Assembly (NCBI GenBank): GCA_903834925.1
Contig: CAILLA010000206.1
Coordinates: forward strand, 1-64,000
Reading direction: 5' to 3'
Origin: an uncultured Schlesneria sp.
GTDB lineage: Bacteria > Planctomycetota > Planctomycetia > Planctomycetales > Planctomycetaceae
Length of the DNA: 64,000 nt
Under the pieces are notes generated by a model. That model had not been told where the DNA came from, searched no databases, and saw only the letters and a program-made list of their open reading frames with translations. The translations under genes and the position numbers were made by a program. This document shows positions 9,275 through 27,871 of this stretch, piece after piece. Numbering within the stretch: the stretch's first letter is position 1; each line of letters starts with the position of its first letter.

Positions 9275-12200
9275 ATGACCATCTGTCGAATTCAACGGAC
9301 CCAGGAAACGTCGTTGAACAGTGTGAGAATTCCATCACGACCATTCGGTCCGGTTGCACGCCGGGCCGCCTTGATATTTTCGGCCCTTCTCGGATGCTGT
9401 TCCGGAACAATCCTCGCCCAGCAGGGACGCGACGCTCGAATCGTCCTGACAACTGGCGGGCCGACAGCCGCCGTTCGAACGCTCGCCTTTTCATCCGATT
9501 CACGGTATCTGTACGCTGCGGGGGCCGACAAGGCCGTCGAAATCTGGAGTTTACCAGAGGGACGCGCAGCCGCACCTGATCTCAAACTGATCGACCATGC
9601 TCGATGGCCGATTGCACGTCATGACCGCGGGCAAATCTGGACCTTGAGTGTCAATGAAGCCAAAAGCCTGATTGCATTTGGCGGATACGGAGCTCAGCAA
9701 ATCAGTGGCGATATCTCAATTGCCGATTCCAGCCACGGACGGCAACTTACCATCCTTCCCCCTCCACTTCCTGACGAAGACCCGATGCAGCGATTTGTCA
9801 CAGGACATTTACAGACTGTGAATTCCGTCTCCTTTTCACCGAGCGGAGAATGGCTGGCATCGATCAGCCTCGATGGCGACATTCGCCTTTGGTCCGTCGG
9901 AAGCTGGACCTCACAACAGATCCTTCCCGCCGGCAGTAATCCAGCCCTTTCCAGCGTCTATGTTCAGTTCATATCGAATAACCAGTTTGTTGCCTCGATC
10001 AATCAGGCTTTAGACCCCAAGCAGCCTGTTTCGCAATTGAAAATGTTTACAATCGGTCCTGACCAGAAAGTGATCGCAGAAACGCTCGCGTCTTCTCATC
10101 AAGGGTTGATTACCGCTTTAGGGTCGGCACCGAAATCACAACGCTGGTACTCGGGCGATGCAAATGGCGAACTGGTGATCTGGCAGGGAGTGAAAGCCCA
10201 AAGGACAAAAGCACCATTCCGAAAAATCCCCGTCCGTGCAATTTCCACAAGCACGAATGGAAATGTCCTGATCCTGCACTCACCGACAACCGCCGCGATT
10301 GCAGCCGGAAAAGAGGATTTTGCTTATGCCGAGTTAGAAAACTTTTCTGACACGGGTTCGACGCTGATCGAGCGCCGTGAGTGGAAATTCCAGGGGGAAA
10401 CCCTCGCGGCAGCCCTCAGTGCGGACGGAAAATACGCTGCGGTGACGCGTCCTGGCGAGGCAGCGATCGAGGTCTTTTCCCTCATTGATCCGAAAATCAA
10501 CCAACATCGCCCCAAACCATTCGCCGCGCAACGCCCGACCGTGTTGGCAGGTTCTGGTTCGACGGTCCACCGAGTTCAGTTCGTTCGACAGCCTGAGACA
10601 ATGCTCGCAGTCTCGACCAACGTCAACGGCGAATGGACGCATGGGTTCAATTTGGCAACGGCCGAAGTTGTACGACCAAGCGCTCTCGGCCAGGTCCAGC
10701 CGGCTCATGCGCCTCCCGATTGGACAATTGATGTCGGCCCCTCATTCGAAGGGCTCGAGCAAACATTGGTGATTCGAGCACAAGGGGCCGAACGGGCGAA
10801 ATTGTCGCTATCGCATCAACGTGAAGGCCACTATGCCGCACACGGCTGGATCTTCGAAAAAGGACAAGCCCAGCCTTCTGCGGTCGCGATTGGAACATTG
10901 CGTCAGAATGGAATTTTTGTGTTTGATCTGCGTGAACCGGGCCGAGCACCCCTGATTCGATACTATCGAGACCATACAAACGCGGTGAATTCGTTAAGCC
11001 AATCCGCAGATGGACGATACCTTGCCTCAGGCTCACAGGATCAGACAATCCGAATCTGGAGCCTGGATGGCTTGCTCACTCAACCGGCCAAATTTTCCCA
11101 ACGCGCGGCTTGGGGAGGAGATTTCGAGATTCGAGATGGGAAACTGATTGCCACATCGCTGTTGGAATTCGGAATTTTAAAAGGAAGACGGCTACAGGAC
11201 GCTGACCAGGTCGTCAAAATTGCATTGCCCTACGAGGGACAACGCAGGGAGATTACCGATCCACACCAGATTCTGAATGCCTTGGAGACTTCTCCGCTAA
11301 CGGAGGCGGTTGAGGTTCATGCTTCCCGAGCCGGTGCCAATCTTCCCCCTTTCATTGTCACACCTGCCTGGGAGCCGATGACTACACTTTTCATTGATCG
11401 TCGCAATGAATGGGCCGCATGGTCCCCTGCAGGTTATTATAATTCGAGCGTTGATGGCGACGAGTTATTCGGATTCCAGATCAACCCGTCGCGTCGAGGT
11501 GAAGAACCAAAGTTCTCTCGTGCCGAACAATTGCGGGACCAGTACGAGCGACCCGATCTGCTGCAAAAGCTGTTTGCTCTGGGATCACTTTCCGATGCGC
11601 TCAAGGCCGTAGCCATCGTTCCTCAAAACCCCGGCGCCATTGTGGCTCAAATCCCCCGAGTTCAAATGAGCAGCCCGGCTTCCATGACAACTTACCCGCT
11701 AGGCGCGGACGTCACCATCGCAGCCGATGTCGATTTCAACAGCGTTCCTTCCACAGAATTCCAAATACAGGGATGGCTGAACGGAGCTAAACTTGGTCCG
11801 CCCATCGTGTCGGTGGTCTCGGGACTTAGTCGGTTTTCCTGGACGGTTTCTCCACCACCCGGTGATTATCAAGCTCTTGTAAAAATCGAATCCATTGGGC
11901 CGACGCTTGCACGTGGAGTGTATTCTGATGCACACATCCCGTTCGTCATGTCGGGTACTCCTGAAATGCGGACCGTTCATGTTCTGGCAATCGGTGCAAA
12001 CAACTATCAAGGGGGATTAAAACTCAATTTCTGCATTAATGACGCTCAAGATTTTGTAAAATTAATCGGGGAAAGTGCCGGGCCACATTACAAGATCGGT
12101 GTCGTCAAAATCCTTGTCGATGAAAACGAAGCGGGTGTCGGTCAATTCGAAAAAGAGACTTTTCAAAAACAACTCAGTCAATTTGCCCGCCAGATCAAAC

Positions 12201-12799
12201 AGACACCGCTAAAATCGAATGATATGGTCATGATCTTCCTGGCGGGGTTAGGCGAGGTGGTCGGGAAAGAATATTTCTTTGTCCCGCCGGTCAGTGAAAT
12301 CAAAAACCTGTCCCAATTGGCGGTGTTGCAAAGACACTCGATTCCGTGGTCCGCGTTCCGTGGCTTGATTGAAGAGATTCCGAATTGCGGCAAAGTATTT
12401 TTTCTGGATACCTGTTACGCAGGGAATATTGCCCGACTGGAATCCGAAAAAGCGCGGTTGCGACCCCTGAAGAACCTCAACACCGTCGTCTTCGCAGCAA
12501 CTTCTGAGGATCATGCAACGCGCGAAGACGAGCTGAATCGGCACGGGCGATTCACCGCATTCCTGCTGGATGGGCTTGGGGGGAGCGCCGATGGCAGTAC
12601 GGTTGACCCGAATCTTGCAGGCTTTCCACCAGTCGAACCGGATGGCCGAGTCAGCTTACTCGAAACCGTAGGGTTTGTGTCACGTGGTGTCTATGAAAAA
12701 TGGCGAAACCAACAACCGAAATACACCCCTGTTTCGCTGATCCGCTTCTTGAACGACCCGATCATCGACGTGACTGTGCCGTCGAAGGTCGGGAACTAG
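9275..12799 (+). CDS. Exported WD40 repeat and caspase-like (C14) protein, catalytic His replaced
   Basis: From the ATG at 9275 the protein has 1174 residues; the frame extends 16 codons upstream. A signal peptide (RRAALIFSALLGCCSGTILA) suggests export. WD40-type blades occur in the first 600 residues, for example 'AVRTLAFSSDSRYLYAAGAD' and 'VNSLSQSADGRYLASGSQDQ', followed by a beta-rich linker. The C-terminal caspase-like domain starts near residue 898 (RTVHVLAIGANNYQ). The catalytic Cys is present in FFLDTCYAG (Cys1047). The block that normally reads GHG reads FLAGLGE, with Leu992 where the catalytic His belongs. Unless another His serves, the protease would be inactive. The next gene encodes a WD40 kinase on the same strand. 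Confidence 0.88.
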   Translation: MTICRIQRTQETSLNSVRIPSRPFGPVARRAALIFSALLGCCSGTILAQQGRDARIVLTTGGPTAAVRTLAFSSDSRYLYAAGADKAVEIWSLPEGRAAAPDLKLIDHARWPIARHDRGQIWTLSVNEAKSLIAFGGYGAQQISGDISIADSSHGRQLTILPPPLPDEDPMQRFVTGHLQTVNSVSFSPSGEWLASISLDGDIRLWSVGSWTSQQILPAGSNPALSSVYVQFISNNQFVASINQALDPKQPVSQLKMFTIGPDQKVIAETLASSHQGLITALGSAPKSQRWYSGDANGELVIWQGVKAQRTKAPFRKIPVRAISTSTNGNVLILHSPTTAAIAAGKEDFAYAELENFSDTGSTLIERREWKFQGETLAAALSADGKYAAVTRPGEAAIEVFSLIDPKINQHRPKPFAAQRPTVLAGSGSTVHRVQFVRQPETMLAVSTNVNGEWTHGFNLATAEVVRPSALGQVQPAHAPPDWTIDVGPSFEGLEQTLVIRAQGAERAKLSLSHQREGHYAAHGWIFEKGQAQPSAVAIGTLRQNGIFVFDLREPGRAPLIRYYRDHTNAVNSLSQSADGRYLASGSQDQTIRIWSLDGLLTQPAKFSQRAAWGGDFEIRDGKLIATSLLEFGILKGRRLQDADQVVKIALPYEGQRREITDPHQILNALETSPLTEAVEVHASRAGANLPPFIVTPAWEPMTTLFIDRRNEWAAWSPAGYYNSSVDGDELFGFQINPSRRGEEPKFSRAEQLRDQYERPDLLQKLFALGSLSDALKAVAIVPQNPGAIVAQIPRVQMSSPASMTTYPLGADVTIAADVDFNSVPSTEFQIQGWLNGAKLGPPIVSVVSGLSRFSWTVSPPPGDYQALVKIESIGPTLARGVYSDAHIPFVMSGTPEMRTVHVLAIGANNYQGGLKLNFCINDAQDFVKLIGESAGPHYKIGVVKILVDENEAGVGQFEKETFQKQLSQFARQIKQTPLKSNDMVMIFLAGLGEVVGKEYFFVPPVSEIKNLSQLAVLQRHSIPWSAFRGLIEEIPNCGKVFFLDTCYAGNIARLESEKARLRPLKNLNTVVFAATSEDHATREDELNRHGRFTAFLLDGLGGSADGSTVDPNLAGFPPVEPDGRVSLLETVGFVSRGVYEKWRNQQPKYTPVSLIRFLNDPIIDVTVPSKVGN

Positions 12800-12965: not shown

Positions 12966-15900
12966 ATGAGTTCGGGATTGACGAACGTTGAATTACCGGA
13001 TGACGAAAGCGGGCTCAACACCGTAGGTGAAGCTCATGTGCAGCCGATTGAACCGCCGGATCATGACACCAGCCTCAGAACGCTGGTCGAAGAGAATTCA
13101 CCGCCACGCGCCAAATCCGACCACGACATCAGCCTGAATACCGTTGTCAGCGATGATCAGCCGTCTCCAAATATGTCTGATCCAAAAACGATCGCGGACG
13201 CCTCAATCAGGTCACGGTCGAATTCACGGAAACCCGTCGAACCATTCGGGCGATTCCGAATTTTACGTCCACACGCGAAGGGTGGATTGGGGCAGGTCTC
13301 CGTTGCCCTGGACCAGGAGTTGAACCGCGAAGTCGCGTTAAAAGAAATCCTTGAACGGTTTTCGGACGACCCTACAGCCAGAGCACGATTTGTTCTGGAA
13401 GCCGAAATCACCGGTGGCCTTGAGCATCCTGGAATCGTCCCTGTTTACGCACTTGGGCAAAGCCGACAGGGAAATCCATTCTATGCAATGAGGTTTATCA
13501 AGGGAGAAAGCCTGAAGCAGTCGATTGATAATTTTCACCAGAAGGACAAGCAGAAGGCTCAATCGCCGGGTGAACGTCAATTCGCATTACGCCAGCTACT
13601 GGGACGCTTTACGGATGTTTGTAACGCGATGGAGTATGCGCACAGCCGAGGCGTTCTGCACCGTGACTTGAAGCCGGCGAATATCATGCTTGGCAAGTAC
13701 GGCGAAACCCTTGTCGTCGATTGGGGGTTAGCAAAAGCGGTTGGCGAGGCAGAAATTGGAGCCGATCTGCCACTGCGTCCGACATCCGCATTAAGCGGCT
13801 CGGTTCAAACTTTACAGGGCTCGGCGCTCGGAACACCGGCTTACATGAGTCCCGAACAGGCGGCGGGCCAACTGGATAACCTCGGCCCCGCTACCGATAT
13901 TTATAGTCTCGGCGCAACGCTTTACCATATTCTTTGCGGACGTCCCGCATTTGAACGGGAAGAACTCAACGAGACCCTTCGCAAGGTTCGAACGGGAGAA
14001 TTCCCTCGGCCAAGGGAATTGCGCAACGAAATCCCACGTGGCCTGGAAGCGATCTGCCTGAAGGGGATGGCGCTGCGTCCTGAGGACAGATATCTTACGG
14101 CAAACTCGATGGCCGACGATGTCGAGCACTGGCTGGCCGACGAACCGATCAGCGCTGCCGAAGACACGTTCAGCGAACGTCTTTCACGTTGGGCTCGTAA
14201 GAATAAAGGTCTGGTTCAGGCTGGTAGTGTTTCATTGGCAATGATCGCCATGATTTCGTCGATCGCCTACGGCATTGTCAGCTTCGCCAATCATCGACTC
14301 AATACCGCCAACTCGACGATTCGTCACCAGAACGAAGAAATCACCAGCAAGAATGAAGAACTCAAGACCACAAACACAGATCTTGATGTTGCCCGGACCG
14401 ATGCGATTCAAAAACGTGATGAGGCCATCAAGCAACGATCCATCGCTCGTGAACTTGTCCGCGAAGCAAGTCGATCGGACTTTGCAACGGCGCAAGAACG
14501 GCTGTCCGAAGGGAAATGGGGTGAAGCCACGGCCTATCTGGGCCGGTCACTCCGATATGATCCGGAAAACACAAATGCTCGCGATGCACTCTGGCTGACA
14601 CTTCGTTACGGTGTTCGTGATTCTCTTCCGTTACCCGTTCATTCATTCTGGCATTCTCAGGCTGTTCTCGGTGCAAGCTTTAGTAACGATGGAAAACGAA
14701 TTGTCACTGCGAGTCGTGATCAGACCGCACGAATCTGGGATGCTAACACGGGCGAGCTTGTCGGATCGCCTCTTTTACATCAGGGGTTTGTCGGTAGTGC
14801 GAACTTCAGCCCTGACCGATCGAAGATCGTCACCATCAGCGGTGATACGAACGTGCAATTATGGGACTCGGTAACCGGGCAACCGCTCGGTCCAGCCATC
14901 GAAGATCCACAAACGATCTATTCCGCAAACTTCAGCCCTGATGGCAGTTCACTGTTAATTGCCAGTGGAGATGGCACGGCACGAGTCTGGGATCTCTCAA
15001 CGGGAAAGCCATCGGGCTTGCAGTTGAAGCATCAGGACGCGATTTATACCGCAAGTTTCAGTTCTGACGGATCGCGCATCTTAACGGCCAGTGGTGATAC
15101 GACAGCACAGGTCTGGGATGCGACGACCGGCCAGCCAATCGGTCGGCCCATGCGTCATCAGGGGGCAATCTATTTCGCCAGCTTCAATCAGTCTGGCACA
15201 TCGGTCATTACAGCGAGCGGCGACACCACCGCAAGAATTTGGGATGCCAACACAGGACAGCCAATCGGCCCGCCACTCACGCATGACCGATCGGTCACCA
15301 ATTGCCGATTCAGTCCTGATGAAACGCGAGCTGTCACGGCCAGCGACGACAAAACAGCCCGAATTTGGGATGCGAAAACGGGTTTGCCGATTGGCCGCCC
15401 TCTGCACCACGACGATGCGGTGATCAGTGCTTGCTTCAGCCACGATGGAACGAGAATTGTCACTGCGAGCGACGATCGAACCGCAAAAATCTGGGACGCT
15501 TTAAATGGAAGCTTGATCGGAACCGCGTTGACGCATGATAGCCCCGTCAACAGCGCATGCTTCAGTCCTGACGGTACAATCGTTTTGACTTCAAGCGATG
15601 ATCTGACTGCTGGTCTCTGGAATGCAATGACAACTCTTCCTGTCGGCCAGACTCTCAAACACAACGATTCGATTTACGACGCGAGCTTCAGTCCGGACGG
15701 CAATCGTGTGGTCACGTCGAGCAGTGATAATACAGCCCAAATCTGGGATGTGCGCACAGGTACAACAATCGGTCCTCCATTAAGACATCAACGTACAGTG
15801 ACACTGGCCCGTTTCAGTCTCAACGGGAAGCGAATTGTAACAGCGAGCGATGACTCGACTGCACAGATCTGGGATGCAGAAAACGGACAACCCGTTGGTC

Positions 15901-17186
15901 CACCACTCACCCACGATGGTGTCGTTGTGACGGCCAGCTTCAGCTTCGATGGAACTCGCGTCGTGACCGCCAGCCAGGATGGGACCGGTCGAATCTGGGA
16001 TGCTGCGACATGTCAGCCAATTGGAACGCCATTAAAACACGAAGCCTTTTTGTCGTGTGCAAGCTTCAGCCCCGATGGACAAAATGTAATCACGGCCAGC
16101 CGAGACAAGACCGTACGGATTTGGGACGGACATACAGGTGAGCCGGTCGGTCCGAAACTGGTACATGAAGGTTTCGTCGATTCCGCCAGCTTCAGTCCGA
16201 ATGGCAAGAAAATCATTACGGCCAGTCGCGATGGCCTGGTAAGGATCTGGGATGCACAAACAGGATTGCTGATCGGATCGCCGCTGCCGCATCCGGATGC
16301 CGTTTACATTGCCAGCTATCGGCCCGACGGATCGAGTTTTCTGACTGTTTGTAATGACCAGATCGTTCGAATCTGGGATGCGGAAACAAACCAGTTGGTT
16401 GGACAGCCTTTACGCCACGAAAGCCGAATCAATAGCGCAAGATTCAGTGATGATGGAAAGCGAATTTTGACGGCGAACGAGGATAAGTCGGCGAGAATCT
16501 GGGATGCCGAAACAGGTCAACCAATCGGCCCTCCCCTGCTTCATAACAAATCACTTAATTCAGCAAGCTTCAGCCCAGACGGGGCCCAAATGGTCACGGC
16601 CAGTGAAGATCGAACCGCAAAGATCTGGGACATCAGTTCGCTTGAAGTTCTCGATGGGACATTGGCGGAAGCGATCGCATCGACTGAGTCTGGCGAACGG
16701 CTTGGTCGACAGCTTGGAATGGTGGAACACGTGGCGACGGAAAAGCGTCACTTGATGGTTCAGGGGTTAGAACCTGTACTGGCGATTCATCCGGATTGGT
16801 CAACACTCGTCCAACAGGATCTTTATCCACAGCCAAACTTGCTGATCTCTACAAAATGGTTGATCACTCGCCGCGACGCGGCCACGCGTCTGATCCGCCA
16901 TGGCACACCAGAACAGATCCGATCGGTTTTATTGATCGATCCCGGCCATCCACTGCTACAGATTGCGTTAGTCCGTCCGAATGAAAACTCAAAACAGGCC
17001 GATTTTTTAAGGGAGTTTGGAGTGCAACATCTACCCGATGACGCTGCAGTCTGTCATGAAGCGGCGGAAATGCTGATTCAGCAGAATGACAAACCGCGAG
17101 CGATGCGAGCCGTTGAAAAGGCAAATCAACTCGATCCCGACAATCCCGAAACAACCCGCTTCAGGAAAATCCTTGCGAACGAATAA
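12966..17186 (+). CDS. Membrane Ser/Thr protein kinase with WD40 repeats
   Basis: 1406 residues. The N-terminal 90 are low-complexity with three copies of a D-x-(S)-LxT(V/L) motif. The kinase domain (about 95-380) shows a Gly-loop KGGLGQV (105-111), VALKEI with Lys126, HRDLKPAN (232-239), DWG (Asp252) in place of DFG, and GTPAYMSPEQ. DWG is common in planctomycete kinases. A single membrane segment (about 415-440) and a coiled coil of Glu/Lys/Asp repeats follow. The outer part carries about 16 repeats ending 'xARIWDAxTGxPIGPPL', enough for two beta-propellers. The last 60 residues look TPR-like. Expected layout is a cytoplasmic kinase with a periplasmic propeller sensor. The ligand is unknown. 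Confidence 0.93.
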   Translation: MSSGLTNVELPDDESGLNTVGEAHVQPIEPPDHDTSLRTLVEENSPPRAKSDHDISLNTVVSDDQPSPNMSDPKTIADASIRSRSNSRKPVEPFGRFRILRPHAKGGLGQVSVALDQELNREVALKEILERFSDDPTARARFVLEAEITGGLEHPGIVPVYALGQSRQGNPFYAMRFIKGESLKQSIDNFHQKDKQKAQSPGERQFALRQLLGRFTDVCNAMEYAHSRGVLHRDLKPANIMLGKYGETLVVDWGLAKAVGEAEIGADLPLRPTSALSGSVQTLQGSALGTPAYMSPEQAAGQLDNLGPATDIYSLGATLYHILCGRPAFEREELNETLRKVRTGEFPRPRELRNEIPRGLEAICLKGMALRPEDRYLTANSMADDVEHWLADEPISAAEDTFSERLSRWARKNKGLVQAGSVSLAMIAMISSIAYGIVSFANHRLNTANSTIRHQNEEITSKNEELKTTNTDLDVARTDAIQKRDEAIKQRSIARELVREASRSDFATAQERLSEGKWGEATAYLGRSLRYDPENTNARDALWLTLRYGVRDSLPLPVHSFWHSQAVLGASFSNDGKRIVTASRDQTARIWDANTGELVGSPLLHQGFVGSANFSPDRSKIVTISGDTNVQLWDSVTGQPLGPAIEDPQTIYSANFSPDGSSLLIASGDGTARVWDLSTGKPSGLQLKHQDAIYTASFSSDGSRILTASGDTTAQVWDATTGQPIGRPMRHQGAIYFASFNQSGTSVITASGDTTARIWDANTGQPIGPPLTHDRSVTNCRFSPDETRAVTASDDKTARIWDAKTGLPIGRPLHHDDAVISACFSHDGTRIVTASDDRTAKIWDALNGSLIGTALTHDSPVNSACFSPDGTIVLTSSDDLTAGLWNAMTTLPVGQTLKHNDSIYDASFSPDGNRVVTSSSDNTAQIWDVRTGTTIGPPLRHQRTVTLARFSLNGKRIVTASDDSTAQIWDAENGQPVGPPLTHDGVVVTASFSFDGTRVVTASQDGTGRIWDAATCQPIGTPLKHEAFLSCASFSPDGQNVITASRDKTVRIWDGHTGEPVGPKLVHEGFVDSASFSPNGKKIITASRDGLVRIWDAQTGLLIGSPLPHPDAVYIASYRPDGSSFLTVCNDQIVRIWDAETNQLVGQPLRHESRINSARFSDDGKRILTANEDKSARIWDAETGQPIGPPLLHNKSLNSASFSPDGAQMVTASEDRTAKIWDISSLEVLDGTLAEAIASTESGERLGRQLGMVEHVATEKRHLMVQGLEPVLAIHPDWSTLVQQDLYPQPNLLISTKWLITRRDAATRLIRHGTPEQIRSVLLIDPGHPLLQIALVRPNENSKQADFLREFGVQHLPDDAAVCHEAAEMLIQQNDKPRAMRAVEKANQLDPDNPETTRFRKILANE

Positions 17187-17241: not shown

Positions 17242-17366
17242 CCTGTTTTCAGCAATTTTTCTTATAACGTCCTGTTCTACGGTATTGAATTCACGAGATC
17301 ACGGTGATCCGTGGTGAGAACCTCTGTTTTCAATCGTTTGATTTCAACTTGGACGAGTCGTTTTTA

Positions 17367-18905
17367 ATGTCGCAGGGAAGCGAGAATTCCGATGGCCGCG
17401 TGATTAGTCACAATGATGTCGCGCCTGTCGCCGTTACGGGTTCGTCCGAACTCAATACGTTTGCCGTTCAGATTCATCAGTCACTTGATCCCAGACGAGT
17501 TGCCTCCGTTGCCGTTCAGGAGCTTCGTCCCTTCCTACTCTGCGATCGGATTTGCTTTCTCGAACGACGTGGATCCGGGTTTCGGCTTGTTGCGGCGAGT
17601 GATCAGGTGGGAAATCTGCGCCGATCAAGACAAGCCGCGTTTTTGGAGCAATTTGTTTCTGCTGCGATTCCCACCGGTGAGCGTTTTCTGTTTCCCGACG
17701 GCGATCTCGAATTACCCGATGAACTCGCTAAGTTGCTGGCAAGCTATTGGGAATTGTCGCATGGTCAAATGATTCTGGTTGAGCCTGTCTTCTCTCAATC
17801 TCAACAACCGGACAAATTGAATTCTAACCCAACCACGCCGACAATCGTCGGGGCGTTGGTGATCGAGCTGTTCTCAGAATCAAATCTCAATCCTGACGTA
17901 CTTCCACGACTTAAGCCCGCAATAGAACATCTGACGATTGCGCTGGCGAATTCCCGTCGTTATTCGCGACTGGTCACGATTCCCGGTTTGTACGTACTGG
18001 GGTTGGTCTTCGAGACGATTCACCGAACTCGCGCGGCCACGATTTTCGTTACTCTGATGTTAGTTTCATCACTGCTGACCAGTGCGGCGTTCATTCAGCG
18101 GCCTTTCGAAATTGAGTGTTCTGGTCGGTTGATGCCTACGATCCGACGTGAAGTTTTTGCGGGGATCGAAGGGGAAGTCGTCGATGTACTGGTTAACGAA
18201 TCGGATCAGGTGGACGAGGGTCAGGTCATCGCCCGATTGAAGTCGCGGGAACTGGAAAAGGCATTACTTGATCAAACCGGCCAGTTAAATCAAAAAATGA
18301 AAGCCCGTGATGCCGCTCGAGCCGACCTGCGAACCAAATCGAGTGCTCCGACTCGTGGCCAGTCGGCTCGCGATCAAGCTCAGCTAGAAATCCTCAATTC
18401 CGAAATCGAAACGATTCATAGACAGCTGGAACTCCTGGAACGGCAGCAGGAGCAACTCGTGATTCGGGCCCCCATCTCAGGGACCATTACCACCGATCGA
18501 TCGCGAGAACGACTGCTCGACCGCCCGGTCCATCGGGGTGAATCGCTGCTGGAAATCATGGACGAAGCAGGAGCATGGCAACTGGAATTAGCCATTTCCG
18601 AGCGTAAGTCGGGTCATTTTCTGTCCTATCACCAGAAACACTCAATGGTCCCGGTCAAATTTCGGTTGCTATCGATGACGCCACAAACATTTGACTGTCA
18701 GGTGACACGCTTAGCCGACCGAATGGTGACAACCCCCGAATTCGGCACCAGCAGCCTGATCTTTTGCGATGTTTCGAATCTCGAGTTAGCCCCACGCCAG
18801 ATCGGTTCCGAAGTCAATGCCCGAATCCAGTGCGGAAAAAAGAGTTTCTTGTTTCTCTGGTTCCACGAGTTTTGGGAACTTCTGCAGCGTCACTGGTGGA
18901 TCTAG
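17367..18905 (+). CDS. GAF domain-HlyD membrane adaptor
   Basis: From the ATG at 17367 the protein has 512 residues (the frame extends 21 codons upstream without protein-like features). Residues about 30-200 look like a GAF domain ('LDPRRVASVAVQELRPFLLC'), followed by a membrane segment (about 222-243, ATIFVTLMLVSSLLTSAAFI). Next comes a periplasmic HlyD-type adaptor: a biotinyl-lipoyl half (VFAGIEGEVVDVLVNESDQV), a coiled-coil hairpin, and the second lipoyl half (LVIRAPISGTIT). The C-terminus is aromatic. HlyD-type proteins bridge inner-membrane exporters to the outer membrane. The cytoplasmic GAF domain is unusual and suggests ligand-controlled export. The PqqD/M50/HlyD gene at 20999 is its likely partner. 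Confidence 0.88.
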   Translation: MSQGSENSDGRVISHNDVAPVAVTGSSELNTFAVQIHQSLDPRRVASVAVQELRPFLLCDRICFLERRGSGFRLVAASDQVGNLRRSRQAAFLEQFVSAAIPTGERFLFPDGDLELPDELAKLLASYWELSHGQMILVEPVFSQSQQPDKLNSNPTTPTIVGALVIELFSESNLNPDVLPRLKPAIEHLTIALANSRRYSRLVTIPGLYVLGLVFETIHRTRAATIFVTLMLVSSLLTSAAFIQRPFEIECSGRLMPTIRREVFAGIEGEVVDVLVNESDQVDEGQVIARLKSRELEKALLDQTGQLNQKMKARDAARADLRTKSSAPTRGQSARDQAQLEILNSEIETIHRQLELLERQQEQLVIRAPISGTITTDRSRERLLDRPVHRGESLLEIMDEAGAWQLELAISERKSGHFLSYHQKHSMVPVKFRLLSMTPQTFDCQVTRLADRMVTTPEFGTSSLIFCDVSNLELAPRQIGSEVNARIQCGKKSFLFLWFHEFWELLQRHWWI

Positions 18906-19144
18906 TTAATTTCTAGCCGTCGCCTGAAGTCCCGAACGTATGCGAAACCTCACTTTTGAATCTCGATTGTCGTTCGCGTCGCCTAATTGAGACGAATTGC
19001 AAATCATGCGAGCCGATCTAAAAACCATATGGACTCGTAATTCATTCGGTTACGAAGATATATTCTGATCGGTGTTAACGCTTCTGGATAAAAGTAGAAT
19101 AAGACGAGAATTCTTGTCGTTCCTCAGACGTACGCGAATCCTAT

Positions 19145-20806
19145 TTATTCCTGATTGACGTGGCTGAGTTGTGGGTGCTTGTAACCTCTTGCACTCATGA
19201 TCGTTTCGATTGTGGGGCGGACTCCTGGAAGATGAGTGACGAGTTGCTGGAAGGCTTCGCGGGAGATTGCGACGGCGTGGACATCGGTTTTGGCGCTGGC
19301 TTGTGCCGATCGTGGTTGGTCTGAGATCAGGGCGATCTCGCCAAAGATGTCTCCTTCTTTTAAGAGGCTGAGTACCTTGCTTTCCTTGATGATTTCAACT
19401 TCCCCTTTCACAACAACCAGTAACTGGTCGCCGAAATCACCCTCATTGAAAATGGTCTCGCCCTTGTTGAAGAAAAGTTGGTGGACGGAATCGGATTCGT
19501 GGATTCGCAACTGGGCGATGTCGCGTGGCAATATGACATCGATGATCCAATCCATTAAGACTCGTACTTTGCGGTCCCAGCCGGGGATTTTCATAAGATA
19601 GATGGCTTTCCAGGCCATCCAGGCGGGGATTCCTCGCATCTTGATTCCCATGACTTCGGCGACGGCGGAATATCGCCCAAGCGAAGCGAGTTTGCCAAGG
19701 CCGGTGAACAGGAATTTGGAATGCTTCTGTTTCCGGTGTTTTGCCAGAAGATTAGCCGCACATGTCTTGGCTTGGCGAACGGCATGCTGGGCGGTTGGAG
19801 GTGACATGATTCCGTCGGGTTGTGGTACAGCAGCACAGTCTCCAACGGCCCACAACATTTCGAAGTTGGGAACGTTCAAGAATTCGTTGACGATGATTCG
19901 GCCAGTTCGATCTCGTTCGCAGGGGAGTGCACTAACTAACGGGTCGGGTGCGGAAGGGACTGTTGTAACAACGGTTCGAGTTTGGATTCGCTGGGAATCG
20001 GGTGAGACTTTCGACGTGACCACGACGGCGTCTGCAGAGACCGCGTTCAAACGGACGTTGACCTGAATCTCAATACCTCGACGTTCCAGAATCTGATGAG
20101 CGTACTGGGCCAGGACCGGATCGACTTCGGGTAGTATTCGTTCGGCGCTTTGGAGCAGCACGCAGCGAAGATCACTCTTCTTCAAATTTCGATAGGCTGA
20201 GATTGCATGAGCCAGGAAGTCGTGCAGTTCCGCGATACATTCGACTCCCGAAAATCCGCCCCCCGCTACGACAAACGTCAGCAGTTTGCGTTTTTCGTCG
20301 GGATCGGATTCGATGTCCGCCTCTTCCAGCGCACGGACGGCTTCGTAGCGCAGCCGCATCGCGTCACCGAGGTATTTGAAGGGGATGGCGTGTTCTTTCA
20401 TCCCTTGCACCTTCGAGAAATCGAGTCGACTTCCCAGGCAAACCACCAGTTGATCGAAGCCGAGCGTTTTCGTTTGCGGCTGAAACCCCGGTGCCAGTTC
20501 CACGGTTTTTGCGGCAAGGTCGATCGATTGAATCTCACGGATGTAGACGCGAGTCGTTCGCAAAATTCGTCGGATCGGAATCACGCCGTGTTGTGGCGCG
20601 ATCGTGGCCCCGACCATCTCGGGCAATAGCGGCTGGAAGACCATGTAGTTTTCATTACTGACCAGATCAACCTCGATTTCGTGTTGTTCGCCTGGTGTCA
20701 GCAGTCGTTCCAAATGCTGGGCCACGTGGACACCAGCAAAGCCTCCGCCAAGGATCAAAATGCGATGTTTGTGGGCCGTCGGCGAATGGGAACCGTCGTT
20801 TGACAT
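19145..20806 (-). CDS. NDH-2 type NADH dehydrogenase fused to a cyclic-nucleotide-binding domain
   Basis: I start at the ATG at 20806 (MSNDGSHS..., 553 residues); 29 further upstream codons look non-coding. The first about 420 residues are a type II NADH:quinone oxidoreductase. They show an FAD-binding Rossmann motif (RILILGGGFAGVHVAQ), an NAD-binding motif (VVAGGGFSGVECIAEL), a WAVGDCAAVPQPDG FAD block, and a TAQHAVRQAK quinone-side helix. The last about 115 residues are a cNMP-binding domain (NKGETIFNEGDFGDQLLVVV, then GDIFGEIALISDQPRSAQA, the phosphate-binding cassette). This would let cAMP or cGMP regulate the enzyme. The gene lies opposite to its neighbours, divergent from the M50 gene. 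Confidence 0.93.
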   Translation of the reverse strand: MSNDGSHSPTAHKHRILILGGGFAGVHVAQHLERLLTPGEQHEIEVDLVSNENYMVFQPLLPEMVGATIAPQHGVIPIRRILRTTRVYIREIQSIDLAAKTVELAPGFQPQTKTLGFDQLVVCLGSRLDFSKVQGMKEHAIPFKYLGDAMRLRYEAVRALEEADIESDPDEKRKLLTFVVAGGGFSGVECIAELHDFLAHAISAYRNLKKSDLRCVLLQSAERILPEVDPVLAQYAHQILERRGIEIQVNVRLNAVSADAVVVTSKVSPDSQRIQTRTVVTTVPSAPDPLVSALPCERDRTGRIIVNEFLNVPNFEMLWAVGDCAAVPQPDGIMSPPTAQHAVRQAKTCAANLLAKHRKQKHSKFLFTGLGKLASLGRYSAVAEVMGIKMRGIPAWMAWKAIYLMKIPGWDRKVRVLMDWIIDVILPRDIAQLRIHESDSVHQLFFNKGETIFNEGDFGDQLLVVVKGEVEIIKESKVLSLLKEGDIFGEIALISDQPRSAQASAKTDVHAVAISREAFQQLVTHLPGVRPTIETIMSARGYKHPQLSHVNQE

Positions 20807-20998
20807 GAAATCTAAGGTCCAACAATGGGATGTACAACTTACAGTTTGAAATCGGAGGCGAGATCGTACTGGACAACGCATGGGTAATGCCACTTTGGCG
20901 AAAATGGATTCCTATTTACGCGGAATTCCAACTACGGTATACGAATCAGATTATGTGGTCCGCTTCTGCCATTAATCTTGTGAAATGAGTCCTCGCCG

Positions 20999-23197
20999 AT
21001 GCTGTTGCCATCGTCGAATCGCCCGATTCCGCTGGTTCGTCGTTCGGATCTGCAAATCAGCACGATGTCGTTTCGCGACGAGACTCATGTTGTTGTTAAA
21101 GATCCTTTGGCGCTCCAATATTTTCGACTGCCAATCCTGCAGTACCGCATCCTGGAATCATTGGATGGCCGGAATTCACTATTGGAAATCCAGAATCGAG
21201 TTCAGGAGCTTGGTGAATCCTCGGCGTTAACTGCAGCTGAGATTTTTGGATTAATCCTGGATCTCGGCAGGAAACGGTTGATTTGGAGCGAACGACCTGG
21301 CACGTCAAAATCGCTTTTGGATCAGGCTGATACGTCTGCACGCAGCAGGTTCTGGAATATCCTCCGCAATCCGCTTTTTATTCGTTTACCGGGCCTTCAT
21401 CCGGGACAAGTTCTTCATTGGCTGGCACAAAGACTGGCTTGGATCTATTCCCTGCCAGTGGCGAGTGCCGTGTTCGCGTTCTTTGCAGGAACATGGTTAT
21501 TTCTTCTGCTGCATGTAGAAACGTTTTTTGGCGAGTTGCCAACGATGTCCAGCCTGCTCGCAGGAAACGGCATCGTGACGTTGTGGATTGTCGTGGGGTC
21601 GCTCAAGATTCTGCATGAGCTGTCTCACGGGTTGGCCTGCGAGCGATTCGGGGCGGAATGTCAGTCGATCGGCCTTGCGTTTTTGTTTTTCAGCCCCTGC
21701 ATGTACTGTGATGTCACCGACTCCTGGATGTTGCCTCGCAAATCGCACCGGATCGCGGTCTCTTTGGCCGGGATCTATGTTGAACTGTTTATCTCGTCAT
21801 TGGGTTTATGGCTCTGGTGGTTTTCGACGCCAGGGCTATTTCATCAAATCTGCCTGCAAGTCTTTTTTGCCGGCTCCGTTTCGACGTTGCTGCTGAACGC
21901 CAATCCGCTGCTTCGGTTTGACGGGTATTTTGTGCTCGCGGATTTGCTCGAAATTCCAAACCTTTATCAGCGAAGTCGTCAGACAGTTCGGCGACTGGCA
22001 GCACGATACCTGTTGGGGCTGAAGACTTTCGACGATTCGGCTTCGACACAGAATGAACCCCGGTCAATAATTGCAGGGTATGGGCTGGCGTCCATAGCAT
22101 ATCAATTACCGATGATGCTCGGTTTATGTTTTTTCTTTTACAGCTTACTGGAGCCGTTCGGCCTTTCGTCCATCTTCTGGATCTATTGTACGGGGATGGC
22201 TATCGTGAGTGGCTGGCGCTTTCTTGTATGGCGTCTTCAAATCGGGCAACAACAGAAATCACCCGTTCGCGCTTGGGTTCATTCGGCGATAACGCTTGGA
22301 TTCAGCCTCGCTCTGTTAACGGGAATCTGGTTCTGTCCGTTACGAAATTCGGTTACCGCGTCAGTGATCATTGAACCGAGGTCCGCTCAGCCTGTTTACG
22401 TAGAGACTGCGGGAACGGTTCGAAATGTGTTGGCCCACGAAGGGGATGTCGTTTCTGCAGGGGCGGTTCTGGTCAAAATGGAAAATCTAGACCTCGATCG
22501 GCAACTGGTCGCACTGGAAGGAATGCGGGCCCTTCATGAGACTGACTTTCGACTGGCTCAAGCCATCAGCGATCCCGACTTGATGTCTCAGGTGAGGACC
22601 GCTGGGCACGCTTCTGACGAGCAGATCGAGTTTGCAAGGTCCGAAAAGGATCGGCTTCAACTGCAAGCACCGCTGGCAGGGACGATCGTTTCGGCAAAAC
22701 GTTCGCCCGACAATGCGGCCGTGTCACAAAATAAATCACCAGCAGAATCACCGGGAATCTTAAATTCCCGTTTGGTGGGAATGTATCTACCTCGAAAAAC
22801 GTATCTTTGTGAGATCGCCCCTTCGGATCGTTGGGAGGCAGGGATGTGGGTTGATCAAAAAAGTCGCCAATATCTATCACCTGGGCAAAAGGTTGCCGTC
22901 CGTCTGGATGCATATTCCGGGACGATCATACCCGGAAAAGTGACTTCGATCGGGTCTGCCAACGAGGCAACAATCCCAGCATCGCTTTCGACGAAATCGA
23001 ATGGGCCGTTCGTGACAAATTCGGTTTCCGGTGGTGAAGCGCCGACTGAACCCGTTTATCGAGCGAAGATCATTCTCGACAAAGTGAGCTTTCCCGCGCA
23101 GTGCGGCATGCAGGGGCAGGGGAGTTTTGATCGTCCCACGTTGACGGTTGGTGCCTGGTTGACTGACGAATTCCATCGGCTGTTTGTCATCAGGTGA
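20999..23197 (+). CDS. PqqD-like/M50 peptidase-like/HlyD membrane protein
   Basis: 732 residues. The N-terminal 80 (RPIPLVRRSDL..., LQYFRLPILQYRILESLDG) resemble the PqqD-like peptide-binding module common at the start of these proteins. About 130-420 is a polytopic domain with HELSHG (zinc-binding HExxH starting at residue 206) and later NPLLRFDGYF, the second metal-ligand block of site-2 proteases (M50). After more membrane segments the protein ends with a periplasmic HlyD-type domain with two lipoyl halves (about 450-550). The gene ends 4 bp before the SecA-like start, and its stop codon lies in that gene's ribosome binding site, so the two are coupled. Together with the GAF-HlyD adaptor it probably forms an export or processing complex. 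Substrate unknown. Confidence 0.9.
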   Translation: MLLPSSNRPIPLVRRSDLQISTMSFRDETHVVVKDPLALQYFRLPILQYRILESLDGRNSLLEIQNRVQELGESSALTAAEIFGLILDLGRKRLIWSERPGTSKSLLDQADTSARSRFWNILRNPLFIRLPGLHPGQVLHWLAQRLAWIYSLPVASAVFAFFAGTWLFLLLHVETFFGELPTMSSLLAGNGIVTLWIVVGSLKILHELSHGLACERFGAECQSIGLAFLFFSPCMYCDVTDSWMLPRKSHRIAVSLAGIYVELFISSLGLWLWWFSTPGLFHQICLQVFFAGSVSTLLLNANPLLRFDGYFVLADLLEIPNLYQRSRQTVRRLAARYLLGLKTFDDSASTQNEPRSIIAGYGLASIAYQLPMMLGLCFFFYSLLEPFGLSSIFWIYCTGMAIVSGWRFLVWRLQIGQQQKSPVRAWVHSAITLGFSLALLTGIWFCPLRNSVTASVIIEPRSAQPVYVETAGTVRNVLAHEGDVVSAGAVLVKMENLDLDRQLVALEGMRALHETDFRLAQAISDPDLMSQVRTAGHASDEQIEFARSEKDRLQLQAPLAGTIVSAKRSPDNAAVSQNKSPAESPGILNSRLVGMYLPRKTYLCEIAPSDRWEAGMWVDQKSRQYLSPGQKVAVRLDAYSGTIIPGKVTSIGSANEATIPASLSTKSNGPFVTNSVSGGEAPTEPVYRAKIILDKVSFPAQCGMQGQGSFDRPTLTVGAWLTDEFHRLFVIR
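23192..23197 (+). promoter_or_regulatory. Ribosome binding site deciding the SecA-like start
   Basis: AGGTGA lies 4 nt before the ATG at 23202 and contains the TGA stop of the M50 gene. It supports ATG 23202 over an upstream TTG at 23184. Confidence 0.6.
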
Positions 23198-23201
23198 AAC
23201 C

Positions 23202-25136
23202 ATGCCGAATCCGTCAACGAAACTGCCGCCGAAACGAGGTCAGTCGATCCTGCCCAAAGTTTGGTGCCGCTGGCAATGGGGACGAATGGCTGAACGGATC
23301 GTGGCGGAATCTGAGCGATTGCAAGCGATCACGATTCCGGAACTCCAGAAATTGGCTCGACAATCTCGAAGTCGTGCCCGACTGGCAGCGTTTGACGAAC
23401 GAACTGTTGTTGGAGTCTGTGCGCTCGTCCGTGAGATCGCAGGCCGCGAACACGGAATCCGGCATTTCCCTGTTCAAATTCAGGGAGCATTGGCAATGCT
23501 CAACGGCTGGATCGCCGAAATGAGAACCGGTGAAGGCAAAACACTCACTTCGCTCATGACCGTGACGTTACTTTCGTTGCGGGGGCAAGGATGTCATGTG
23601 TTTACTGCGAATGACTATCTGGCTGTTCGCGATTGTGAATTTGCCAAGCCTGTCCTGCATTGGTTCGGACTGACGGCAGATGTGCTCGTCGCCGATCAAC
23701 TGGAACAGGATCGTCAGAAGTGTTACCAGGCCGATGTAATATATGGCTCGGAAAAAGAGTTTGGATTCGATTTTTTACGCGACCGGATCAAGGGGGTTTC
23801 TGTCTACGGAACGGAACGCAGCACGCCGGATCAAATATCCCGATCGATGATCCAGAACGGGCATGCGTACGCGGTAATCGACGAAGCAGACAGCATTCTG
23901 CTCGATCAGGCGTGTACGCCGTTGATCATCTCGTGCCCGCAACCTGTCACTGACGAAGATCTGACTCTCTTTCACTGGAGCGAACAATTTGCCGGAGGGT
24001 TATCCGTCACCACCGACTACCTGCTTGACCCACGAATTCAGTCGGCCAGGCTGACTCAACGGGGCGTTCGTCGGCTCAGGCTGACGGCAAAACCGATAAC
24101 GGTCGCTCAGCGATCCGGTGAAGCTCTCTTTTCACAAATTGAGCGGGCTTTGGCGGCTCGTCATTTCTATCATGAAAACCGAGAATATCTGGTCATTGAT
24201 GGGCGAATCGAAATCATTGATCAAGGGACCGGCAGAATCTTGCCAGGCCGAAAGTGGCGAGATGGCCTGCAGCAAGCCATCGAAATTCGAGCCGGGCTGA
24301 AACCAAGTGATTCCACCGGAAGTGCAGCCCGCGTGACGCTTCAGGGCTATCTCACAAATTATCCTTTCTTGTGCGGAATGACAGGGACCGCATTCGAAGC
24401 ACGTGCGGAATTGAAGCGGACATACGGGCTTCGAGTCATGCCGATCGCGACTCATCACCCTTGTCAGCTTCGGCAGTTCCCAGCACGCATCTTTATCGAT
24501 GCTGACCACAAATGGACGGCGATCACTGAGGAACTGATAAAGGTCGTCGAAGCTGGCCGTGCGGCGCTCGTTGGTACAACTTCAATCACAAGCAGCGAGC
24601 AATGTGCTGAACGGCTGAGAATGCTTGGAATCGAAGTTCAGGTATTGCACGCAAGGCATCATCGAGACGAGGCGGAGATTGTTCGTCAGGCAGGGGAAAC
24701 CGGCCGAATTACGGTGGCGACGAACATGGCTGGGCGTGGTACTGATATTAAGCTTCATCCGACCGTTCGCGATGCAGGTGGACTGCACGTCGTCCTGACA
24801 GAGATGAATCGCTCAACACGAATCGATCGTCAGCTGGCAGGTCGCGCGGCTCGCCAGGGAGACCCTGGTTCGAGTCAGGCATTTGTTTCATTGGACGACG
24901 AATTATTGACGATTCTGGGTGCGGCACGCATCAACCGTTTGAAAGAACTCACACGCGGGATCACCAACGGGGAACTTCCGAGTCAGTGGATCAAATATTT
25001 CGTGAAAGCACAGCGTTTATTTGAACGCCAGGCTGAACTGGAACGAAGCCAGCTACTGAGTCGAGAACGACGTCGAACAGACTCCATGACCCCACTGGGG
25101 CTCGACCCGTTTGTCGAGTTCGCCAGCGATGGTTAA
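23202..25136 (+). CDS. Short SecA-like preprotein translocase ATPase
   Basis: 644 residues, compared with about 850-900 for housekeeping SecA. Residues about 80-230 carry the nucleotide-binding domain with MRTGEGKTL (Walker A, Lys113), FTANDYLAVRD, and VIDEADSILLD (Walker B, Asp227). The preprotein-crosslinking part contains EYLVIDGRIEIIDQGTGRI, and the second ATPase lobe has TGTAFEARAELKRTYGL, TNMAGRGTDIKL and QLAGRAARQGDPGSSQAFVS. All helicase motifs are intact. The C-terminal helical scaffold/wing and zinc-binding tail are largely missing. It is translationally coupled to the PqqD/M50/HlyD gene, so it probably powers a dedicated system rather than general secretion (inference). Confidence 0.92.
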   Translation: MPNPSTKLPPKRGQSILPKVWCRWQWGRMAERIVAESERLQAITIPELQKLARQSRSRARLAAFDERTVVGVCALVREIAGREHGIRHFPVQIQGALAMLNGWIAEMRTGEGKTLTSLMTVTLLSLRGQGCHVFTANDYLAVRDCEFAKPVLHWFGLTADVLVADQLEQDRQKCYQADVIYGSEKEFGFDFLRDRIKGVSVYGTERSTPDQISRSMIQNGHAYAVIDEADSILLDQACTPLIISCPQPVTDEDLTLFHWSEQFAGGLSVTTDYLLDPRIQSARLTQRGVRRLRLTAKPITVAQRSGEALFSQIERALAARHFYHENREYLVIDGRIEIIDQGTGRILPGRKWRDGLQQAIEIRAGLKPSDSTGSAARVTLQGYLTNYPFLCGMTGTAFEARAELKRTYGLRVMPIATHHPCQLRQFPARIFIDADHKWTAITEELIKVVEAGRAALVGTTSITSSEQCAERLRMLGIEVQVLHARHHRDEAEIVRQAGETGRITVATNMAGRGTDIKLHPTVRDAGGLHVVLTEMNRSTRIDRQLAGRAARQGDPGSSQAFVSLDDELLTILGAARINRLKELTRGITNGELPSQWIKYFVKAQRLFERQAELERSQLLSRERRRTDSMTPLGLDPFVEFASDG

Positions 25137-25174: not shown

Positions 25175-27871
25175 ATGCCTGTGTCTGCTGAAGAAGAACG
25201 TTTGCAACAGTCTCGTGAAAGATCCGAAAACTGGCAGCGCTGGGGGCCTTATCTTTCGGAACGACAGTGGGGAACCGTCCGCGAAGACTATTCACCCAAC
25301 GGCGACGCCTGGGGATATTTCACTCACGAACAATCGCGTAGCCGCGCTTATCGCTGGGGCGAAGATGGTTTGCTGGGAATCTGTGATCGCCAATGCCGAT
25401 TATGTTTTTCGTTGGCACTCTGGAATGGCCGCGATCCGATTCTCAAAGAGCGGCTATTTGGTCTGACAGGGCCGGAAGGGAATCACGGCGAGGACGTCAA
25501 AGAGACGTACTTCTATCTTGATTCGACTCCGACGCATTCATACATGAAAGCCCTCTACAAATATCCGCAGTCCGAATTTCCCTATGCAAAGTTGACCGAA
25601 GAGAATCGCCGTCGAACCCGGTTTGAACCGGAGTATGAACTCGACGATACGGGAGTCTTTCAAAACCAACGATACTTCGACGTCTTTGCAGAATATGCCA
25701 AGGCCTCGTCAGACGACCTCTTGATTCGGATTACGATCGCAAATCGGTCAAGCCAGAAGGCACCAATCCATCTGTTGCCGACATTGTTCTTCCGGAACAC
25801 CTGGTCCTGGGGTTGTACGCACGAAGGGTGTGAGCGAAAGCCATTAATCACACGTCATGCCGACGGTTCGTTGCTCGCCGACCACGTCACTTTGGGACGA
25901 TACCGGTTGTATTGTGAACAATCTTCCAAAGCACGTCCGGTGTCGTTTTTGTTTACGGAGAATGAAACGAATACCAGTCGCCTGTTTGGGGCGTCGGGCG
26001 ATCGGCATTATGCGAAAGATGCCTTTCACGATGCGGTTGTTTTTGGCAAGACGGACGCGGTTAACCCTCGGTTTCGCGGAACCAAAGCCGCCCCTCACTA
26101 TGTATTCGAAATTCCTGCCGGGGAACAGGTGACGGTCAGGCTGAGGCTCACCGCAGAAAATCAGCTTCATGGTTCTCCGCTCGACGCAAGCTTCGACGAG
26201 ATTTTTGCCAAACGGATCGCGGAAGCCAATGACTTCTACGCGTCAAAAATCTCGAACGCGACAAATGATGCAGAAAGACTTGTGTCACGTCAGGCCTTCG
26301 CGGGACTGCTCTGGAGTAAGCAGTTCTACCACTATGCCGTCGAGCCGTGGTTGAACGGCGACCCGGATTTGCCGCCCCCTCCAGCCAGTCGGAAATTGGG
26401 CCGTAATCGAGACTGGATGCATCTGTTTAATCGCGACATCATCTCCATGCCTGACAAATGGGAATATCCTTGGTATGCAGCGTGGGATCTGGCGTTTCAT
26501 ATGATTCCGATGGCCAAGGTCGACCCGGAATTTGCCAAGGAACAACTGATCCTGATGCTTCGTGAATGGTATATGCACCCTAACGGGCAGATTCCCGCCT
26601 ACGAATTCGGGTTTTCGGATGTGAACCCCCCTGTCCACGCCTGGGCCTGTTGGCGTGTCTATAAAATGACGGGACAACGTGGCAGTCGTGATCGACAGTT
26701 CCTTGCCCGTGTGTTCCAGAAACTGCTTATCAATTTCACGTGGTGGGTCAACCGCAAAGACGTAAACGGTCAACACCTGTTTGCTGGTGGCTTCCTCGGC
26801 CTGGACAATATTGGAGTGTTTGACCGATCCAGACCGTTGCCGACCGGAGGCCATCTTGAACAGGCTGACGGCACTGCCTGGATGGCGTTCTATTGCGTGA
26901 CGATGCTGGCCATCTCCTTAGAACTGGCACATGAGGACCCCGCCTACGAAGACATTGCTTCCAAGTTCTTCGAACATTTTATCGCGATTACCGATGCCAT
27001 GAATTGCATGGGTGGAACGGGTCTCTGGGATGAGGAGGACGGTTTTTACTACGACCAGCTGAAGGTCAATGGCCAGATCCATCGTCTTAAGATCCGATCG
27101 ATCGTGGGGATTATCCCCTTGTTTGCTGTCCTGGTCCTCGAAGGGGACTTTCTGGAGACATTACCCGGCTTTCAAAAACGGATGGATTGGTTTCTGGCGA
27201 ATCGACAGGATCTCGCCAGGAAGATTTCCTACTGTGAGCTGGAATGTAACGATGGGACGACCCATACCCATCGGCTGCTGGCAATCCCGTCGCATCAGCG
27301 ACTCGAACGTGTCCTGCGGTATCTGCTTGACGAAAACGAATTTTTATCTCCCTATGGTATTCGAGCCCTCTCGCGAGTCCATGCCGAGCATCCGTTCTCG
27401 TTCTGGATGGATGGAGAAGAACATCGAGTTGAATATGTTCCGGCAGAATCGACCTCAGGCATGTTTGGCGGTAATTCGAATTGGCGAGGTCCGATCTGGT
27501 TCCCGATCAACTATCTAATTATCGAATCGCTTGAACGTTACTACTACTTCTATGGTGAATCATTCCAGGTGGAATGTCCGACGGGATCAGGCAAGTTTAT
27601 GTCACTCAAAGACGTTGCCCAGGAAATCAGTCGTCGACTCGCTTCGATTTTTCTTCCGGGAGAGGACGGCCATCGTCCGGTGCATGGTCAAAATGCCGAT
27701 TTCGCTACCGATCCTCATTGGAAGGATCTCGTGTTGTTTTATGAATATTTTCACGGAGACAACGGCCGTGGCGTCGGAGCCAGCCACCAGACCGGCTGGA
27801 CCGCTTTGGTGACACGTCTCGTCGGAAAAAGGGAAAATAAAAAATCGCTTCCCGAGGACAAGCTGGAATAG
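25175..27871 (+). CDS. GH63-like glucosidase
   Basis: 898 residues without a signal peptide. The N-terminus has 'YFTHEQSRSRAYRWGEDGLL', typical of large bacterial glucosidases of glycoside hydrolase family 63 (mannosyl-oligosaccharide glucosidase/mannosylglycerate hydrolase relatives). An (alpha/alpha)6 barrel follows, with the family blocks WEYPWYAAWDLAFHMIPMAK, 'GGFLGLDNIGVFDRS', 'WDEEDGFYYD' and, near the end, SGMFGGNSNWRGPIWFP. The Asp in 'AWDLAFH' and the Glu residues of 'WDEEDGFYYD' are candidate catalytic residues. Probable role is hydrolysis of a glucoside or compatible-solute disaccharide in the cytoplasm. It lies 38 bp after the SecA-like gene but has no obvious functional link. Confidence 0.88.
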   Translation: MPVSAEEERLQQSRERSENWQRWGPYLSERQWGTVREDYSPNGDAWGYFTHEQSRSRAYRWGEDGLLGICDRQCRLCFSLALWNGRDPILKERLFGLTGPEGNHGEDVKETYFYLDSTPTHSYMKALYKYPQSEFPYAKLTEENRRRTRFEPEYELDDTGVFQNQRYFDVFAEYAKASSDDLLIRITIANRSSQKAPIHLLPTLFFRNTWSWGCTHEGCERKPLITRHADGSLLADHVTLGRYRLYCEQSSKARPVSFLFTENETNTSRLFGASGDRHYAKDAFHDAVVFGKTDAVNPRFRGTKAAPHYVFEIPAGEQVTVRLRLTAENQLHGSPLDASFDEIFAKRIAEANDFYASKISNATNDAERLVSRQAFAGLLWSKQFYHYAVEPWLNGDPDLPPPPASRKLGRNRDWMHLFNRDIISMPDKWEYPWYAAWDLAFHMIPMAKVDPEFAKEQLILMLREWYMHPNGQIPAYEFGFSDVNPPVHAWACWRVYKMTGQRGSRDRQFLARVFQKLLINFTWWVNRKDVNGQHLFAGGFLGLDNIGVFDRSRPLPTGGHLEQADGTAWMAFYCVTMLAISLELAHEDPAYEDIASKFFEHFIAITDAMNCMGGTGLWDEEDGFYYDQLKVNGQIHRLKIRSIVGIIPLFAVLVLEGDFLETLPGFQKRMDWFLANRQDLARKISYCELECNDGTTHTHRLLAIPSHQRLERVLRYLLDENEFLSPYGIRALSRVHAEHPFSFWMDGEEHRVEYVPAESTSGMFGGNSNWRGPIWFPINYLIIESLERYYYFYGESFQVECPTGSGKFMSLKDVAQEISRRLASIFLPGEDGHRPVHGQNADFATDPHWKDLVLFYEYFHGDNGRGVGASHQTGWTALVTRLVGKRENKKSLPEDKLE

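Follow-up and report, generated by a model that had tools for sequence, protein, structure and literature searches.

A shortened SecA, an M50 membrane protein and HlyD adaptors from Schlesneria: a candidate exporter for giant LEPR-XLL-tagged proteins

What do a HlyD-type adaptor, a membrane protein with M50 peptidase and HlyD parts and a shortened SecA-like ATPase do together, and on which cargo would they act? The question is raised by a stretch of 64,000 nucleotides from an uncultured Schlesneria sp. of the Planctomycetaceae (assembly GCA_903834925.1, contig CAILLA010000206.1, positions 1 to 64,000; the window hereafter), which encodes all three. A sequence-only reading had seen in them a protein or peptide export and maturation machine with ligand control, possibly with a small precursor peptide, that it could not match to a described system. 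Comparison with related genomes supports the view that the genes belong to a conserved, putatively envelope-spanning export module, whose parts are linked in numerous genera from two phyla; this linkage supports the export part of the earlier interpretation. For the small precursor no support was found. A described counterpart does exist: the locus is already in print (PMC4452313; Kamneva, Poudel and Ward, 2015), and what is new is a testable cargo and signal. The reading to which we incline somewhat is a TolC/HlyD exporter for giant surface or secreted proteins with an N-terminal LEPR-XLL-like tag, in which the short SecA would act as the motor.

All three genes were recovered at the predicted positions as open reading frames (ORFs) on the forward strand with matches to the Pfam models HlyD, Peptidase_M50 and SecA_DEAD. 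The first (17367-18905 from an ATG, or from a GTG at 17304) encodes a HlyD-type adaptor of 512 amino acids (aa) with a GAF-type N-terminus, one hydrophobic segment resembling a transmembrane helix (residues 225-243) and a following HlyD barrel-sandwich domain. The second (20999-23197) encodes a membrane protein of 732 aa that consists of a PqqD-like N-terminus, a polytopic M50 region with the motif HELSH and a C-terminal HlyD domain. Its stop codon is separated by 4 nt from the ATG (23202) of the third gene, which ends at 25136 and encodes a short, secondary SecA-like ATPase of 644 aa, or starts from a TTG at 23184. The domain labels of the sequence-only reading stand to different degrees. HlyD and SecA are assigned by Pfam, the latter by SecA_DEAD (259.6 bits), SecA_PP_bind and the P-loop with otherwise only generic helicase matches, and the M50 label rests on a Peptidase_M50 score of 22.8 bits, under the cut-off of 27.2, together with HELSH. 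For GAF and PqqD the domain-model scans of the window's proteins yielded nothing, and both were assigned through relatives, of which 16 of 33 aligned to the GAF-HlyD protein match GAF and 14 of 45 aligned to the M50-HlyD protein match PqqD.

The catalytic motifs of both enzymes are intact. HExxH and N..P....D are invariant in 45/45 aligned M50 relatives from planctomycetes and proteobacteria; 40/40 aligned short SecA-like proteins share the same residues at the Walker A, DE and arginine positions and keep the DEAD, preprotein-binding and P-loop domains. The ATPase had been described as lacking most of the C-terminal scaffold, and this is borne out by a profile of the short SecAs, which aligns to residues 12-609 of Bacillus subtilis SecA and 14-618 of Clostridioides difficile SecA2, so that the alignment stops near SecA residue 610 and the window protein breaks off in the first part of the helical scaffold. 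The helical wing and the two-helix finger lie beyond the aligned region. Scored against equivalog or subfamily models of canonical SecA, the short SecA reached 515, 505 and 498 bits, all under the respective cut-offs of 862, 814 and 800. In a phylogenetic tree, 37 short SecAs are split from eight full-length SecAs, including the one of the window organism itself, by a branch with 100/100 support.

Kamneva and colleagues described secondary SecA_DEAD proteins without most of the scaffold and with HlyD, M50 and GAF-HlyD neighbours, in loci that contain no ABC transporter and sometimes an outer-membrane channel, with Planctomycetes and Proteobacteria among the hosts (PMC4452313). They termed the locus type-I-secretion-related, called its role "completely unknown" and suggested SecA as a substitute ATPase and M50 as a possible pore; they report an operon of four genes in Methylobacterium extorquens AM1. 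No cargo or tag was found named there, and PqqD, LEPR and DUF3467 have no mention in the main text. The window agrees with that locus in a SecA_DEAD protein that lacks the SecA_SW (scaffold/wing) domain wholly or for the most part, in the co-encoded HlyD, M50 and GAF-HlyD proteins (GAF through relatives only) and in a clade of short SecAs apart from canonical SecA, the present tree having been built without the sequences of that paper. It differs in that the M50 active site is kept throughout the relatives and that giant LEPR-XLL genes are a recurrent neighbour in proteobacteria.

The linkage of the parts was measured in 61 genomes of the window's family with a threshold of 12 kb; full-length SecAs were left out by means of their long open frames. 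Among the matches listed, a scope that applies to all linkage counts of short SecAs and M50-HlyD genes below, there are at least 95 short SecAs and at least 150 M50-HlyD genes, and 29/95 short SecAs lie within this distance of an M50-HlyD gene. In the five closed genomes, 7 pairs were observed against 0.18 expected. An M50-HlyD gene is present in every genome with a short SecA, yet 59/61 family genomes have one. Outside the planctomycetes, all 12 short-SecA rows from alphaproteobacterial plasmids (H31-H42 of 40 listed) adjoin an M50-HlyD gene. The sequence-only reading had asked for conserved synteny and named failure to co-occur elsewhere as its refutation; the genes do co-occur elsewhere. 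By clustering, a small HlyD protein was found in 10/37 and a TolC-like protein in 10/37 non-redundant SecA neighbourhoods, and the cluster representatives were confirmed by Pfam as HlyD and OEP. The full operon of Methylosinus has the order giant gene, DUF3467, HlyD, PqqD/M50, short SecA, HlyD and TolC.

DUF3467 proteins recur beside the cassette or the short SecA in both phyla (by Pfam in L039, L065 and L087; by record annotation in L099, L100, L106, L114 and L115) and are a possible extra component. Genes of the SapC family, which is S-layer related, lie in or next to cassettes on alphaproteobacterial plasmids (L101:10200-11021; L117:12859-13690, 247 bits by Pfam; NZ_CP123586.1 183557-184354).

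The cargo is suggested by what stands in front of the proteobacterial cassettes. A giant gene or open frame of at least 2,000 codons lies directly upstream in 17 of the 20 cassettes viewed, some of which are near-copies of one another (e.g., Rhodobacteraceae M382 and Alisedimentitalea). The three exceptions are a 1,412-aa gene in Phyllobacterium, a 492-aa gene in Magnetospirillum and, in R. johnstonii, an upstream region that is cut by the start of the record. Nine of the 17 giants were judged for their N-terminus, five from cassettes with a short SecA and four from cassettes without SecA in the stretch viewed, and all nine carry a LEPR-XLL-like tag (seven read directly, two named LEPR-XLL in their records). 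Variants occur in Pontibrevibacter (MEPRVLL), Azospirillum (LEPRFMF), Burkholderia (LEPRVVY) and Kosakonia (LEPRMLF). In Alisedimentitalea (L162, NZ_CP123586.1 near 183224) the tag is found in frame above the annotated start, which seems to be placed too far downstream. As a background, the tag pattern, picked after the cargo had been read, occurs in 1/774 ATG-started ORFs of at least 150 aa from 36 loci; this one is the Pontibrevibacter cargo itself, leaving 0/773 for the others.

Planctomycetes have the tag as well. In 8/40 of their neighbourhoods (L034-L073), ORFs that carry it, 457 aa to more than 2,000 aa long, lie close to or directly beside SecA or the associated TolC gene, with M50 or GAF genes in L036, L041 and L052 and without them in L039, L043, L049, L053 and L070. 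The LEPR-XLL model NF012209 (LEPR-8K; cut-off 17 bits) is passed by the Pontibrevibacter cargo with 27.4 bits and by the sequence from L036 with 19.7 bits; the other four planctomycete sequences scanned are below the cut-off or unmatched and are LEPR-XLL-like by motif rather than by model. Around SecA loci, 762 kb contain eight N-terminal LExRxLL ORFs, of which the one in L060 is doubtful, against one in 398 kb around M50-only loci and one in 300 kb of arbitrary regions, and scrambled motifs gave 0 or 1.

At the genome scale, the 61 family genomes were scanned for a DNA pattern that encodes LExRxLL[S/T/A/P]A and for its backward control, with G045 placed among the genomes with short SecA, as short-SecA fragments were found there. 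In the 53 genomes with short SecA the motif was found 341 times and the control 125 times; in the eight without, 12 and 18 times. The groups differ in the motif (Mann-Whitney p = 0.0004, uncorrected for shared ancestry) and do not differ in the control (p = 0.92). Six of the eight genomes negative for short SecA have M50-HlyD genes and show 7 motif against 12 control counts, so that in this limited sample it is the short SecA, and not the M50 gene, that the motif follows.

In the window organism itself, six motif hits were obtained, and in four of them the motif follows a basic stretch near the start of an ORF; these ORFs comprise 1,505 aa, 2,391 aa, one frame cut by the contig end after 635 aa and one short frame. 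The TolC-like gene of this genome is G000:C90. In a related Schlesneria metagenome-assembled genome (L076), the small HlyD gene still adjoins the GAF-type gene, and its flanking genes resemble, by eye, those of the window organism's copy on another contig. This similarity of the flanks suggests that the locus of the window's genome was probably split by rearrangement.

Alongside the observed anatomy, the intact motifs, the linkage, the tagged giants beside proteobacterial cassettes and the covariation of motif and short SecA in one family, we infer tag recognition, cleavage, the motor role of SecA and the export path as follows. The module would comprise the GAF-HlyD protein, the M50-HlyD protein, the small HlyD protein and a TolC-type outer-membrane channel, with the shortened SecA replacing the ABC transporter. 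Its cargo would start with a basic stretch followed by the LEPR-XLL-like tag. The PqqD-like domain would bind this tag at the membrane, the M50 centre would trim or release it, the short SecA would feed the chain, and the HlyD proteins and TolC would carry it out. It is possible, though we put it forward only tentatively, that this amounts to a separate type of secretion system. There, the LEPR-XLL leader would be read by the PqqD-type domain, the membrane protease would both cut and form part of the inner-membrane gate, and a SecA without its SecY-working parts would drive the chain through HlyD and TolC, independently of SecYEG and of ABC transporters.

Several observations weigh against the proposed exporter of tagged giants. 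No tagged ORF is found in the window, and in its genome the tagged proteins, the small (third) HlyD, the TolC-like protein and DUF3467 are all encoded on contigs other than the window's. For 122/150 M50-HlyD genes, no listed short SecA within 12 kb has that gene as its closest M50 gene. The small genes upstream of the Phyllobacterium and Magnetospirillum cassettes (n = 2) are untagged, and cassettes without SecA in the stretch viewed also adjoin tagged giants, which implies that the short SecA is dispensable in some cases, either because the housekeeping SecA can take over or because the short SecA is an additional motor. The enrichment of the N-terminal motif near SecA loci is mild, shared ancestry may enter the comparison of the family groups, and 11/53 family genomes with short SecA, including the cassette-rich G048, have no motif excess. 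Outside the family no excess was seen, neither in 110 genomes of the phylum (176 motif against 294 control counts) nor in the 12 genomes there with a short SecA frame (33 against 38); that the control is the more frequent of the two points to a bias of the backward control through base composition outside the family. Finally, the AlphaFold model of the M50 protein, computed from a five-row alignment, is poor (predicted local distance difference test, pLDDT, 51.8), and the order strand-strand-strand-helix-helix-helix in its residues 22-91 only hints at a PqqD-type fold.

The main rival, which we consider rather unlikely, is a two-step route in which the short or the housekeeping SecA moves the tagged proteins through SecYEG, and HlyD, M50 and TolC handle the outer-membrane step only. 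The short SecA retains both the motor and the preprotein-binding domain, one SecY is available per genome (one in 60/61 family genomes, with none found in one incomplete genome), and the cassettes without SecA beside tagged giants fit this route as well. However, SecA works on SecY through the helical wing and the two-helix finger, and these lie outside the aligned region of the short SecA. The tagged N-termini moreover have no typical hydrophobic signal-peptide core, as judged by eye.

A spare SecA paralogue with an unrelated role, whose linkage to M50-HlyD genes would have arisen through chance or shared mobility, is improbable. It would explain the 66/95 short SecAs without an M50 gene within 12 kb, many of them on short contigs, and the linked and unlinked copies, which are interleaved in the tree (root disregarded). 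It does not sit well with the excess of pairs in closed genomes or with the unbroken linkage on the alphaproteobacterial plasmids, and no short-SecA genome without an M50-HlyD gene was found, a point of limited reach given how widespread that gene is in the family.

Least probable is a maturation and export pathway like that of ribosomally synthesised and post-translationally modified peptides (RiPPs), in which the M50 protein cuts a small precursor and the giant neighbours are incidental: 14/45 M50 proteins have the PqqD-like domain, 45/45 match the daptide protease model and 18/45 the epipeptide protease model with E-values of 1e-10 or better, but the window protein scores 158.1 bits against the 300-bit cut-off of the daptide model NF041824, any protein below 150 aa in the 45 neighbourhood clusters listed occurs in two loci at most (ORFs of at least 70 aa, smaller ones not being searched), one of the small clustered proteins is DUF3467, and the recurrent operon neighbour in proteobacteria is the giant tagged gene.

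The proposed exporter of tagged giants was also compared with known systems. Type I secretion (HlyB-HlyD-TolC) has in common with it the HlyD adaptors, a TolC-type channel, encoded elsewhere in the window's genome, and giant repetitive cargo. It differs in the energising and membrane components, which here are a SecA-like ATPase and an M50 protein, with no ABC transporter found by Pfam in a scan of six window proteins from the 9-28 kb region, and in the common feature of the cargo, which is N-terminal here. Accessory SecA2 systems likewise place a second SecA beside the housekeeping one, whereas here there is a single SecY, the short SecA is without the C-terminal part of SecA and its scores fall far short of the cut-off in each of the four SecA2 models listed; an identity with SecA2-SecY2 was dropped in view of the one SecY. 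The M50 proteases of daptide and epipeptide (YydH-LiaK) systems are related by profile in the M50 region, but the M50 protein here carries HlyD and PqqD-like parts and stays under the curated cut-off, and a daptide-type RiPP maturation was dropped on account of that score. The Ig-like RSP proteins of IncHI plasmids were considered as an experimental precedent and dropped, since the papers credit the plasmid type IV system with their export (PMC6764697, PMC8730810); their main texts have no mention of HlyD or TolC.

Some further features were recorded around the locus. Between the adaptor and the M50 gene, on the opposite strand (19145-20893), lies a gene for an NDH2-type dehydrogenase of 582 aa with a cyclic nucleotide monophosphate (cNMP)-binding domain (Pfam), which the sequence-only reading had not mentioned. 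Among the loci compared, its position next to the cassette is confined to the window's genus and G048 (L058), and it is probably not part of the system. A GH63/MGH1-like glycosidase gene (25175-27871) begins 38 nt past the stop codon of the short SecA gene; among the loci compared, this gene follows SecA only in Schlesneria relatives. Upstream, a WD40-repeat protein of 1,190 aa with a C-terminal caspase (Peptidase_C14) domain by Pfam (9227-12799) adjoins a gene for 1,406 aa (12966-17186), by eye a protein kinase with WD40-like repeats, and a protein of 333 aa with a C-terminal TIR domain (TIR_2, 55.3 bits) is encoded at 2736-3737 on the reverse strand. Elsewhere in the phylum, four small genomes of 3.0-3.6 Mb from family f4 (G061, G084, G127 and G172) contain further SecA copies, some with open frames of 677-739 aa; these genomes have no motif excess.

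LEPR-XLL is known by name as a tag on proteins that are thousands of residues long. In the open-access literature, as far as it is covered here, it is mentioned in passing and on neither export nor sorting; no described export route was found there, nor any record that links LEPR-XLL giants to the secondary-SecA locus. The link proposed here would join two gaps, a tag for which no described route was found and a locus predicted in 2015 to be an exporter, but with no cargo assigned to it. If it is true, SecA would power a trans-envelope exporter, and a route for giant proteins of some planctomycetes and proteobacteria would be mapped.

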